Under the pieces are notes generated by a model. The model was not told where the DNA came from. It searched no databases and was given only the letters and a program-made list of their open reading frames with translations. From Thermostichus lividus PCC 6715 (GTDB taxonomy: Bacteria > Cyanobacteriota > Cyanobacteriia > Thermosynechococcales > Thermosynechococcaceae), in the NCBI RefSeq assembly GCF_002754935.1, contig NZ_CP018092.1:310001-374000 (forward strand): DNA of 64,000 nucleotides. Direction: 5' to 3'. Shown here in pieces: positions 1-5,639 of the stretch. A program made the translations under genes and the position numbers. Every line of letters begins with the position of its first letter. Within the stretch, counting starts at the first letter, position 1.

Positions 1-15
1 CAGTTCAAGTTTCAT
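1..15 (-). CDS. Start of a gene running off the left edge; possibly cas7e (cse4)
   Basis: Only five codons are visible (MKLEL), starting with ATG at position 15 and preceded by a near-perfect ribosome binding site (TAAAGGAGG on the minus strand, 21-29). The gene lies downstream of a cse2 remnant on the same strand. In type I-E cas operons the gene after cse2 is normally cas7e, whose N-terminus is a short beta strand of this kind. The cas7e assignment rests on position, not on sequence, and could easily be wrong. Confidence 0.35.
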
Positions 16-26
16 GAGAACCTCCT

Positions 27-107
27 TTAGGAAATAAAAGATTTAACTAACAAGTCCAAACAACAATAAGGTTCATCTTTTTCGATGACGAAAGAGAGTT
101 GATACAT
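27..107 (-). CDS. 26-residue ORF with strong ribosome binding site, unknown
   Basis: ATG at 107 is preceded by AGGAGG about six bases upstream, and the ORF ends in TAA overlapping the ribosome binding site of the next gene. The product would be 26 residues, starting MYQLSFVIEKDE and containing a CC pair. It could be a real micro-gene, a leader peptide coupling translation to the next gene, or the N-terminal stub of a decayed gene. No family is recognised. It sits between a DUF2283 gene and the gene starting at 15, in what looks like one tightly packed transcription unit. Confidence 0.35.
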   Translation of the reverse strand: MYQLSFVIEKDEPYCCLDLLVKSFIS

Positions 108-131
108 TATTTTTCCTCCTGATTTTTCCGA

Positions 132-341
132 TTAATGAGGTGCGGGTTTTGCAATCATGTAGCTAACAAATTGAGGATCATCGACACGCTGAGAGGCATC
201 TAATACCTCTAGGCCGACGACATTGCCCTCGTCATCAAAGTCGAAGATAATCCCTGATACATCTTCATCACTTTCGCTAATGGGCGTATCTCTAAATAAA
301 ATTCTCAGTACATCAACCTCTGGGTCGTAAATAATTTTCAT
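132..341 (-). CDS. DUF2283 family protein
   Basis: A 69-residue protein with the DUF2283 layout: an N-terminal 'YDPEVDVLRI' strand, a central acidic stretch (about residues 17-36, SESDEDVSG..FDFDDEGNVVGLEVLDAS) and the family's 'GLEVLDAS' segment. DUF2283 proteins are small and are usually encoded beside DUF4258 genes. The pair is often listed as a putative toxin-antitoxin module, without firm functional proof. The start ATG overlaps the TGA of the upstream DUF4258 gene in an ATGA (338-341), implying translational coupling. The likely role, inferred only, is the antitoxin-like partner. Confidence 0.8.
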   Translation of the reverse strand: MKIIYDPEVDVLRILFRDTPISESDEDVSGIIFDFDDEGNVVGLEVLDASQRVDDPQFVSYMIAKPAPH

Positions 342-601
342 GACATCCTCCAGTATTTTTGAATTTTGCTAGTTCGATAGACTGTGATTACAACCGATGG
401 CGAGATAGTTTCATCTACAAAGACTCGCAGAAGATATTGCTTTTCGCCATCAAAACGGATTCTAGATTGGTAAATAGTGCGCCGATTTCGCCCTAGCAAG
501 ATCTGCTCCGGCTGCGAAAGTACTGCTTCTACCTGTTCTCGGGCAATGCCCCGGCGCTGCATTTCTTCCAAAGCGTGGGCTGTAAATCTAAGCTGACTCA
601 C
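338..601 (-). CDS. DUF4258 family protein
   Basis: 87 residues. The N-terminal 'FTAHALEEMQRRGI' and the following 'VEAVLSQPEQIL' match the DUF4258 pattern (RFTxHAxxRMxxRGI), and the C-terminal half is strand-rich ('LRVFVDETISPSVVITVYRTSKI'). DUF4258 resembles RelE-like small toxins in size and partner gene, but activity is unproven. The start GTG overlaps the TGA of the cse2 remnant as GTGA (598-601), and its own stop overlaps the DUF2283 start, so three genes form a coupled chain. The 4-bp overlap suggests the pair was part of the cas operon rather than a late arrival. Confidence 0.8.
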   Translation of the reverse strand: MSQLRFTAHALEEMQRRGIAREQVEAVLSQPEQILLGRNRRTIYQSRIRFDGEKQYLLRVFVDETISPSVVITVYRTSKIQKYWRMS

Positions 602-930
602 GACTCAGCCTCGTCAGCTATACTAGGTGGTGCTGCCCGCCAGAAGGTTTTGGCCCACTGGTCTTGGATAAATTGATCAGGATGATCCCAGAAACAGATA
701 TCGGCTATGAGTTGGGGATAGTAGATGGGAATTTTCTTGTCCTTTTTACTTTTAATCTGTCGCACCAACGCTGTAATCGGAGATTGGATATTAGCAAGAT
801 CGGTATCTAGCAAGGCTTTAAATCGCCGTTCTGGGCCTTTAGATTGACTGCTGTTGTGTAGGCAAACGGTAGCAGAGCAGGGGAGCATGTCACTTTTTGA
901 GAGAAAAGGCGGGTCAAGGTGCCCATTCAA
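598..930 (-). pseudogene. cse2: cse2 (casB) C-terminal remnant, type I-E CRISPR-Cas
   Basis: The open frame is 110 residues, but only the C-terminal part (from about residue 25) resembles a known family. It contains 'ERRFKALLDTD', then 'ALVRQIKSK', then 'YYPQLIADICFWDHPDQ' and 'QWAKTFW', in the order and spacing of the Cse2/CasB small subunit of type I-E Cascade, whose C-terminus has RRFxALL...LVxxLKSK...QLxxDLxxWDHP...WAxxFW. The usual N-terminal half is absent. Upstream (higher coordinates) there is a transposase scrap and then acnB, with no cse1 or cas3. The gene is therefore 5'-truncated and the complex it served is probably non-functional, unless intact copies exist elsewhere. Confidence 0.75.
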
Positions 931-3896: not shown

Positions 3897-4292
3897 TCAA
3901 TTACTCTTGCCCTGAGCTTCAATGTAGCGCTGAATTGTTTCGCTGCTAACATTGCCAGCCGTTGAGACAAAGTAACTGGATGTCCACATGGACGGCAGTT
4001 TCATTAATGGATTAGGGAATTCCTGTCTGAGGAACCGTGCAGTTCGCCCCTTAATTCGATGAATGATTTGATAGGGTGCAATTGTTGGAGGGCAGTTAAC
4101 AAAGAGGTGGACATGATCCGGTTCAATTGCCAACGACACAACTTGACAATCAATCTCCTCTGCTGCTTCCCATATCAACTGCCTGCACCGATTTGCTATT
4201 TCTCCCCGTAAAACAGGTCTACGCCGCCGAGGAATCCAGACAAAGTGATAGTTCAGCAAATACGTTGCACTGCGGCTTTTCTGGTAGTCCAT
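3897..4292 (-). CDS. tnpA: IS200/IS605 transposase TnpA (Y1 HUH)
   Basis: 131 residues, normal for the Y1 transposases that cut and rejoin single-stranded element ends. The HUH metal-binding motif is present (His60-Val-His62 in 'EPDHVHLFVN') and the nucleophile is probably Tyr123 in 'IQRYIEAQGK'. The N-terminal 'YHFVWIPRRRRPVL' is typical of the family. It is divergent from tnpB, with 5' ends close together near 4290-4350. No frameshift or missing catalytic residue is seen, so it may be active and could mobilise the two small relatives in trans. Confidence 0.93.
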   Translation of the reverse strand: MDYQKSRSATYLLNYHFVWIPRRRRPVLRGEIANRCRQLIWEAAEEIDCQVVSLAIEPDHVHLFVNCPPTIAPYQIIHRIKGRTARFLRQEFPNPLMKLPSMWTSSYFVSTAGNVSSETIQRYIEAQGKSN

Positions 4293-4349
4293 AGTTCACC
4301 GGTTTGTCTATCTGTGCTACGCTGTAGACAATTGTTGCATAAACTCACC

Positions 4350-5639
4350 ATGTTTGGATGTCAGCAAGTTTTGCTCAACCCCAATAACGAACTTAAGGGG
4401 GTGATGGAATTTGTCTGCTCTGAGGCAAACAAGCTAACCAATCAGGGCATCTACTATGCTCGTCAACTGCACTTTAAGACCGGGCAGTGGATTGGCAAGC
4501 ATAGCCTGAGTTACGAATACAAGACCAGTAAGCACTTCCAAGCTCTTTACTCCCAGGCTGCACAGCAAACCTTGATTTCGGTCTACGAGTCGTTTAAGTC
4601 CTACCGAGCATTGTTGAAACTGTGGCGAGGTGGAGAACTGGCAGAGAAACCCAGGATGCCAAATTACCGCAAGAAGGGAGGGTTGGCAGTAGTCAGCTAT
4701 CCCAAACAAGCGCTGAAGTTGGTTGATGGGATGATCCGGGTTCCGCTGGGGCAGTTAGTGAAAGTGTGGTTTCAGATTGATTCGTTCACTGTCCCCGTGC
4801 CCTCCAATCTCAAATTTGAGGACATCAAGGAACTGCGGATTCTGCCGCGCAATGGGTGTTTCTACACTGAGTTTGTCTATCGTCTGAACCCCGTTCAGAT
4901 TGATGTAGACCCGATGCGGGTGCTGGGCATCGATTCGGGATTAAACAACTGGCTCACCTGCGTCAGCAATGTGGGAACCAGCTTCATTGTGGATGGACTG
5001 CACCTGAAATCATTGAACCGCTGGTACAACAAGCAAATTGCCAAGCTGAAAGAAGGTAAGCCTCAAGGCTTTTGGTCAAAGCGACTGGCACAACTCACTG
5101 AGAAGCGCAATCGGCAGATACGTGATGCAGTGAACAAAGCGGCTAGGATTGTGATTGACCATTGCACCCGTAACCGGATTGGTCGGATTGTATTTGGCTG
5201 GAACCAGCAGCAAAAGGACGGTTCCAACCTAGGCAAGAAGACCAATCAGAAGTTTGTGCAGATCCCAACTGCGAGACTGAAAGAGCGGATTGCTCAGTTA
5301 GCGGAGCAGTACGGGATAGAGTTTGTTGAAACTGAGGAGTCGTATACCTCTCAAGCATCGTTTGTGGATGGTGACTTTTTGCCGACATTCGGTGAAAAAC
5401 CTGATAGCTGGAAGTCATCGGGGAAGCGGACGAAGCGAGGCTTGTTCAGGACTGCTCAGAATTGGTACATCAACGCGGATTGTAATGGCGCTGCCAACAT
5501 CCTGCGTAAAGTAGCGACGATGCTTGGATTGAGTCTGAGCGGAGTTGGTAGGGGGTCTTTGACTGCCCCCACCCGTATTAAGTTGTGGGTGACAGCTCAA
5601 GGGAAAAGCGAAGCAACGCGGCTTCAGCCCGTTGCGTAG
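4350..5639 (+). CDS. tnpB: TnpB RNA-guided nuclease of the IS605 element
   Basis: 429 residues from ATG 4350; an upstream extension in the same frame overlaps tnpA and is unlikely to be coding. The RuvC-like acidic residues are visible: Asp195 in 'VLGIDSGLNN', a glutamate in 'FVETEESYTSQ' (about 327-330) and Asp377 in 'INADCNGAANI'. The four-cysteine zinc ribbon usually found between the last two is missing: the stretch 'ASFVDGDFLPTFGEKPDSW' has no CxxC pairs. TnpB proteins cut DNA next to a short TAM, guided by an RNA made from the element's right end, and so help retain the element. The last codons overlap the presumed guide-RNA region. Confidence 0.9.
   Translation: MFGCQQVLLNPNNELKGVMEFVCSEANKLTNQGIYYARQLHFKTGQWIGKHSLSYEYKTSKHFQALYSQAAQQTLISVYESFKSYRALLKLWRGGELAEKPRMPNYRKKGGLAVVSYPKQALKLVDGMIRVPLGQLVKVWFQIDSFTVPVPSNLKFEDIKELRILPRNGCFYTEFVYRLNPVQIDVDPMRVLGIDSGLNNWLTCVSNVGTSFIVDGLHLKSLNRWYNKQIAKLKEGKPQGFWSKRLAQLTEKRNRQIRDAVNKAARIVIDHCTRNRIGRIVFGWNQQQKDGSNLGKKTNQKFVQIPTARLKERIAQLAEQYGIEFVETEESYTSQASFVDGDFLPTFGEKPDSWKSSGKRTKRGLFRTAQNWYINADCNGAANILRKVATMLGLSLSGVGRGSLTAPTRIKLWVTAQGKSEATRLQPVA

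Follow-up and report, generated by a model that had tools for sequence, protein, structure and literature searches.

A predicted DUF4258–DUF2283 toxin–antitoxin pair inside type I-E cas operons and in the remains of one in Thermostichus lividus

Introduction

Why do two small genes remain open in the cyanobacterium Thermostichus lividus PCC 6715 at a place where the type I-E cas operon around them has broken down? The genes encode proteins of the families DUF4258 and DUF2283 and lie at the very start of the window analyzed here, by which we mean the whole 64,000-nt stretch of DNA (bases 310001–374000 of a 2.66-Mb genome on one contig). An earlier note on this DNA had described them as a toxin–antitoxin-like pair coupled to a Cascade gene and suggested that they might guard the cas operon in the manner of CreTA, which is described as an RNA-based guard of type I-B systems (PMC9458426).

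Toxin–antitoxin genes are reported to have long been known to share genomic islands with defense genes, (PMC3150331); finding one within a cas operon is therefore unsurprising by itself. A 2025 survey lists DUF4258 (PF14076) as a BECR family with unknown activity and the gene order A/T (PMC11980606). The slr1421/ssr2377 genes of Synechocystis 6803, given as a predicted DUF4258–HicB pair with the order AT–T (PMC4963859), likewise represent a DUF4258 predicted toxin in a cyanobacterium. The locus studied here differs from both in having the predicted toxin gene first and DUF2283, not HicB, as its downstream partner; the main text of the survey contains no occurrence of DUF2283. In the literature searched, we found no paper on DUF2283, alone or with DUF4258, and none of the titles and abstract starts listed dealt with genes of this kind in the cse2–cas7 gap. 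A text search of a 2025 review of links between toxin–antitoxin systems and CRISPR returned neither type I-E nor HicA nor cyanobacteria (PMC12737573). A type I-E Cas7 protein is reported as expressed in a Thermosynechococcaceae strain from Namibia whose proteome was studied (PMC11450739).

Here, we present a genetic case for a DUF4258–DUF2283 toxin–antitoxin family with DUF2283 as the putative antitoxin, together with natural before-and-after examples of toxin–antitoxin modules inside a cas operon. New, in our view, are the association of DUF4258 with DUF2283, in which loss is one-sided, and the I-E operons in which the pair can be seen before and after decay. Whether toxin–antitoxin genes in cas operons are guards or mere survivors now becomes a testable question. 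Our explanation, which we consider probable, is that DUF4258–DUF2283 represents an undescribed type II toxin–antitoxin family that entered a type I-E operon once and outlived it by addiction.

An open gene pair between cas remnants

All elements of the locus lie on the minus strand between positions 1 and 930, in the arrangement that the earlier note had read (a cse2 remnant, DUF4258, DUF2283, a 26-residue open reading frame and the start of a further gene), and the sequence confirmed the GTGA and ATGA overlaps. The first element in the direction of transcription (598–930) is a C-terminal fragment of cse2 (Cas11e), which aligns with positions 72–137 of the 137 in the Cse2 profile PF09485 (E 5.8e-9; similarity at 604–861) and also matches TIGR02548. 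Its stop overlaps, as GTGA, the GTG start of a complete DUF4258 gene (338–601, 87 aa), the product of which covers 71/71 positions of PF14076 (E 3.5e-11) and is a predicted RelE/ParE-superfamily toxin. An ATGA junction connects the stop of this gene to a complete DUF2283 gene (132–341, 69 aa; 49/49 positions of PF10049, E 2.8e-17) for the predicted antitoxin. Directly ahead of the DUF2283 ATG and within the toxin's last codons (Tyr-Trp-Arg) stands a GGAGG motif (347–351) that, judged by its position, would serve as the Shine–Dalgarno site of DUF2283.

The 26-residue reading frame (27–107) corresponds to the stub of a HicB-like antitoxin gene, of which the first 19 residues remain. They match residues 1–19 of the HicB proteins in genomes G401 and G280 at 63% identity by tblastn, a short and weak match (E 0.006–0.008) but in the same place. 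A complete HicB occupies the corresponding position in G280, G401 and Vasconcelosia, and the G280 and G401 proteins match PF15919. The last gene begins at 1–15 (ATG 15–13) and runs left beyond the window, with 59 codons to its stop. Its product matches the Cas7e profile PF09344 over 59 residues (E 5e-22), which bears out the proposal that the gene starting at 15 is cas7. This stub has a TAG inside, and a second Cas7e piece follows further left; the two pieces together represent Cas7 residues 1–163 of about 390 at 68% identity (tblastn).

The reading of the locus as a decayed type I-E operon also stood, with the C-terminal half of cse2 and the cas7e stub left and the other cas genes absent. Searches with tblastn at E up to 0.01, using 24 query proteins from the cas and toxin–antitoxin genes of relatives, found no cas5, cas6, cas1, cas2, cas3 or cse1 in the window or in 16 kb of left flank. 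Among the genes expected on extending the sequence leftward, cas7 was thus present as a stub, whereas cas5, cas6, cas1 and cas2 did not appear in those 16 kb. Cas1 had no match in the whole genome in a search that was positive in 9 of 14 control genomes, and no Cas7e was found in the genome beyond the two remnant pieces. Of a complete cas3–cse1–cse2–cas7–cas5–cas6e–cas1–cas2 set with an array, the locus therefore keeps remnants of cse2 and of cas7e on the same strand.

Left of the cas7e pieces stand uppS and other genes that we take to be ordinary chromosomal ones. The aconitase gene adjoins the remnant; the ten other genomes of the genus also have aconitase, with other genes after it, and the sequence inspected there, which stops short of uppS, showed no empty site. 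A scan for promoters and terminators at the locus gave no more matches than in shuffled sequences. About 3 kb from the cas remnant, window positions 3897–5639 hold an IS200/IS605-like pair, presumably a small transposase on the minus strand and a TnpB-like protein on the plus strand. Far from the remnant, C1:2503984–2504076 (L103:1485–1577) holds a pair of degenerate repeats resembling those of type I-E and separated by one spacer, probably all that is left of an array.

The pair in type I-E operons of relatives

Searches for Cse2 gave a match in 7 of 386 genomes of the phylum (6 above the cut-off) and in 5 of 29 genomes of the order, and screening named genomes with an alignment of Cas7e returned 20 loci, 16 of them cyanobacterial. 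The comparison rests on 17 cyanobacterial I-E operons with a readable cse2–cas7 gap, comprising 15 of these 16 and those of G280 (same family, other genus) and G391 (same genus). Left out of the counts were L073 (a contig without cse2), L014 (below the cut-off and not a cse2), four Streptomyces operons, in which tblastn detected no pair genes, and L012 and L013, I-E operons without the pair from the same phylum but outside the class.

G280 carries a complete type I-E operon with arrays, in the order cas3, cse1, cse2, DUF4258, DUF2283, HicB, a frameshifted HicA, cas7, cas5, cas6, a ParE-type toxin with a small partner, cas1 and cas2. This operon supports the earlier assumption that the pair was part of the original operon, and the outcome that would have refuted it, a lack of the pair in the intact operons of every relative, did not occur. 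DUF4258–DUF2283 thus stands between cse2 and cas7 in other cyanobacteria, in G280 complete and in the Synechococcaceae metagenome-assembled genome (MAG) SM2_3_2 with a stop in DUF4258 and a damaged cas7–cas5 region. In G085, a member of another family, a fragment of cse2 precedes intact DUF4258 and DUF2283 genes and a HicB stub of 23 residues; the 18 kb inspected there held no further cas gene except for one weak Cas1 match (E 0.003). Because the gene order of the window recurs in G280, G085 and SM2_3_2, it is not due to chance. The window DUF4258 protein is 76% identical to the G280 and 71% to the G085 copy, and the window DUF2283 protein shares 81–90% identity with the cse2-adjoining copies in G280, G085 and Petrachloros. 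In a tree, the cse2-linked copies group as a single clade (FastTree support 1.0), from which we infer one entry into an I-E lineage.

Other operons retain parts of the insertion. The whole operon of Petrachloros mirabilis has DUF2283 without DUF4258 in the gap, followed by a PemK-type toxin and a HicB gene. In the MAG SM2_1_8, where the contig stops at cas5, the cse2–cas7 gap holds an in-frame fusion of DUF2283 residues 1–27 with a HicB remnant (L070:8747–8965). G391 also has a whole operon, with DUF2283 residues 47–67 only, PemK pieces and a HicB piece in the gap (L022:10950–11550). In total, DUF2283 or its remains occur in the cse2–cas7 gap of 5/17 operons. HicB–HicA occupies the gap in two further ones (Acaryochloridaceae MAG RU_4_10 and Vasconcelosia minhoensis), so that 7/17 have some toxin–antitoxin gene or remnant there; the remaining ten have none and a spacing of only 83–157 nt. 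Four operons also have HicB-like genes in the cas6–cas1 gap, on the opposite strand; three of these four matches fall below the Pfam cut-off. Counting the cse2–cas7, cas3–cse1 and cas6–cas1 gaps together, 11/17 operons hold a toxin–antitoxin-type gene or remnant; as these operons are few and related among themselves, the sample is too small to show an enrichment of such genes, and the MAG contigs L062 and L070 may hold assembly errors that mimic broken genes. The genes counted in the cas3–cse1 gap include BrnT–BrnA pairs, which stand there on the opposite strand in three cyanobacterial I-E operons (L064:5868–6370, L067:5904–6403 and L075:6746–7248).

DUF4258–DUF2283 as a conserved unit with one-sided loss

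With a profile built on the DUF4258 proteins of the three cse2-linked copies, we obtained 31 matches, spread over 29 of the 386 genomes; the 31st was left out, and locus counts rest on 30. At all 30 loci read, DUF2283 follows directly downstream on the same strand, and the two genes overlap by 4 nt at 15 of the 24 loci measured (a count without L041, L047, L049, L051, L057 and L059). These are small, adjacent, co-directional and usually overlapping genes kept as a unit, as in type II toxin–antitoxin systems. Only 3/31 DUF4258 matches adjoin cse2, the other 28 lying elsewhere. This distribution, and the lack of the pair in most of the 17 I-E operons, make it very improbable that the two genes serve Cascade or RNA processing as accessories instead of forming a toxin–antitoxin system, a reading that can point to the literature searched, where we found no tested function for either protein.

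The two genes differ in how they are lost. Four of the 30 loci (L041, L047, L049 and L057) have a DUF4258 frame with an evident break or truncation; L051, where no start codon was found, and L059, with a stop near the end, were scored as unbroken. DUF2283, by contrast, is open at 30/30. A broad DUF2283 profile matched in 82 of the 386 genomes, and among its best 36 matches (E to 1.1e-25) eight come without a DUF4258 match. Directly before seven of these eight DUF2283 genes stand the last codons of a lost DUF4258 (read by eye; at L086 the trace is also a profile match, E 1.4e-6); the eighth, L087, has no trace of it. In the pairs, these last codons contain a Shine–Dalgarno-like GGAG or GGAGG for DUF2283, which would explain why they are retained. 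Together with SM2_3_2 and Petrachloros, this gives 13 loci at which an open DUF2283 stands next to a DUF4258 that is broken, reduced or missing, not all of them independent events (L082 and L083 look like near-copies), against 0/30 for the reverse. The predicted toxin gene is thus dispensable where the predicted antitoxin gene is kept. G391 and SM2_1_8, which count in neither direction, have lost or truncated both genes, and antitoxin loss is therefore possible. The upstream gene might also be lost oftener than the downstream one for other reasons.

Predicted fold of the two proteins

An AlphaFold2 model of the DUF4258 protein (pLDDT 87, pTM 0.78, from a two-row alignment) has the topology helix–helix–four strands–helix; conserved residues of the protein include His9, Arg59 and Tyr75. 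In VIA-align, 43 of the 50 listed rows carry a toxin title or toxin gene name, led by a Salmonella toxin (Z 7.6), BrnT (Z 7.2) and RelE2 (Z 7.0), and the first clearly different protein appears at rank 42 (Z 5.1). Foldseek returned no match at E < 0.001, its best being the same Salmonella toxin at E 0.11. The full-length PF14076 match and the best structural rows, which are RelE, ParE, YoeB, HigB and BrnT toxins, place DUF4258 close to the RelE/ParE (BECR) superfamily, an assignment to be read with the best Z below 8, the two-row alignment and the Foldseek E value of 0.11. The model thus makes a RelE/ParE-fold toxin likely and, with the pairing and the one-sided toxin loss, bears out the toxin–antitoxin-like character claimed for the pair.

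Another close comparison is BrnT–BrnA, which shares the toxin-first order, ranks second among the structural rows and is itself found in the cas3–cse1 gap of related operons. It differs in that DUF4258 has no BrnT profile match and DUF2283 is not a BrnA by Pfam. For DUF2283 the model was poor (pLDDT 58.7), and no antitoxin fold was seen in it. Sequence comparison with solved structures gave five weak matches of DUF4258 to an unrelated protein (E 0.6–0.7) and six of DUF2283 to plant-virus coat proteins over 27 residues (best E 0.00023), which we took as chance. PHROGs yielded weak matches only, to families of unknown function, and PADLOC and NCBIfam yielded none for the pair.

Guard, passenger or survivor

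Two decayed loci are known, the window and G085, of which only G085 is independent, having been found by a search without the pair. At both, the breaks fall within cse2 on one side and HicB on the other, just outside the intact pair. Such breaks would fit the idea that the pair guards the cas operon as a protein counterpart of CreTA, with the antitoxin supplied through cse2 translation along the GTGA/ATGA chain and the toxin freed when Cascade is lost or silenced. Like CreTA as described (PMC9458426), the predicted toxin–antitoxin pair is lodged among cas genes. Of the six loci where DUF4258 or DUF2283 comes after cse2, five (the window, G280, G085, SM2_3_2 and Petrachloros) have a cse2 stop that overlaps the following start, the usual DUF2283 start lying a few bases past the cse2 stop at the sixth, SM2_1_8, and the toxin–antitoxin-type genes or remnants in 11/17 operons, although some are HicB-like matches below the Pfam cut-off, would also accord with guarding.

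Several observations argue against this. Ten of the 17 cse2–cas7 gaps have no toxin–antitoxin gene at all. Among the five operons with DUF2283 traces, an intact toxin gene is found in G280 only, and two of the other four, in Petrachloros and G391, are whole yet without DUF4258 in the gap. Most DUF4258 matches (28/31) lie away from cse2, and the operon of the window was lost anyway. CreTA differs further from the pair, which consists of two proteins, is dead or gone in several operons that keep cas genes and has no pseudo-repeat beside it: the best matches to three repeats reached 16–18 of 28–29 bases, compared to 18–19 in the best of 30 shuffles. A guard role is hence not supported so far and seems unlikely to us. 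We are equally doubtful of its wider form, in which cyanobacterial I-E operons would habitually nest protein toxin–antitoxin modules, with the antitoxin chained through translation to Cascade genes, that punish operon loss or silencing, with DUF4258–DUF2283 surviving operon death.

The pair could instead be a passive passenger, one of the small mobile genes that gather in non-essential gaps of defense operons, open only because decay is recent. Selection tests gave no contrast between the pair and the cas remnants, which suits this reading: the cse2 and cas7 N-terminal fragments share the low apparent omega of the pair (about 0.1). Changes on the window's own lineage comprise six nonsynonymous and seven synonymous ones in DUF4258 (expected nonsynonymous share 0.887, p 2e-4), a result that by itself speaks for the addiction reading below, with corresponding counts of 5/3 in DUF2283, 4/3 in the cse2 piece, 2/3 in the cas7 start and 12/4 in the cas7 middle. 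Ten pair loci inspected over a wider range also speak for a passenger: their chromosomal surroundings are mixed, and in at least four cases include other small toxin–antitoxin-like genes nearby (by eye). Mere carriage is harder to reconcile with the 30/30 pairing and the one-sided toxin loss. In the window, moreover, the reading frames of both pair genes remain uninterrupted although those of Cas7e and HicB have been broken, and HicB is a stub in G085 as well. On balance, we regard a passive passenger as improbable.

The reading we favor is survival of the pair through addiction, with guarding as a possibility. In this proposal, DUF4258 would be a small toxin of RelE/ParE fold that most probably cleaves mRNA as an endonuclease, and DUF2283 the antitoxin that neutralizes it, translated from a ribosome-binding site in the toxin's last codons and coupled through the ATGA overlap. 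The pair would have entered the cse2–cas7 junction of a cyanobacterial I-E operon once, its start overlapping the cse2 stop, and then travelled with that operon. In PCC 6715, deletion and decay would have removed the operon and left the pair intact, as expected of an addiction module rather than of chance sparing. Cells that lost the antitoxin before the toxin would have been counter-selected, and surviving deletions would for this reason end just outside the pair. That G085, the one independent decayed locus, has likewise kept the pair intact counts in favor of this proposal.

Further copies of the pair

The PCC 6715 genome contains a second DUF4258–DUF2283 pair at C1:2018125–2018555 (L024:4117–4562). 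Upstream of it, L024:3370–3890 holds another small gene and then a DUF2283-like gene below the Pfam cut-off. G391 likewise has a DUF4258 gene outside its operon, at C1:1959130. Concerning mobile elements, the window DUF4258 had no relatives in plasmid or phage records, and neither the window DUF2283 nor the narrow and broad DUF4258 alignments had any in viral contigs. The broad DUF2283 alignment led to a complete DUF4258–DUF2283 pair on the viral contig IMGVR_UViG_3300028455_000002 (L080:2735–3192), where its neighbors, by eye, are a methyltransferase-like gene and apparent phage structural genes.
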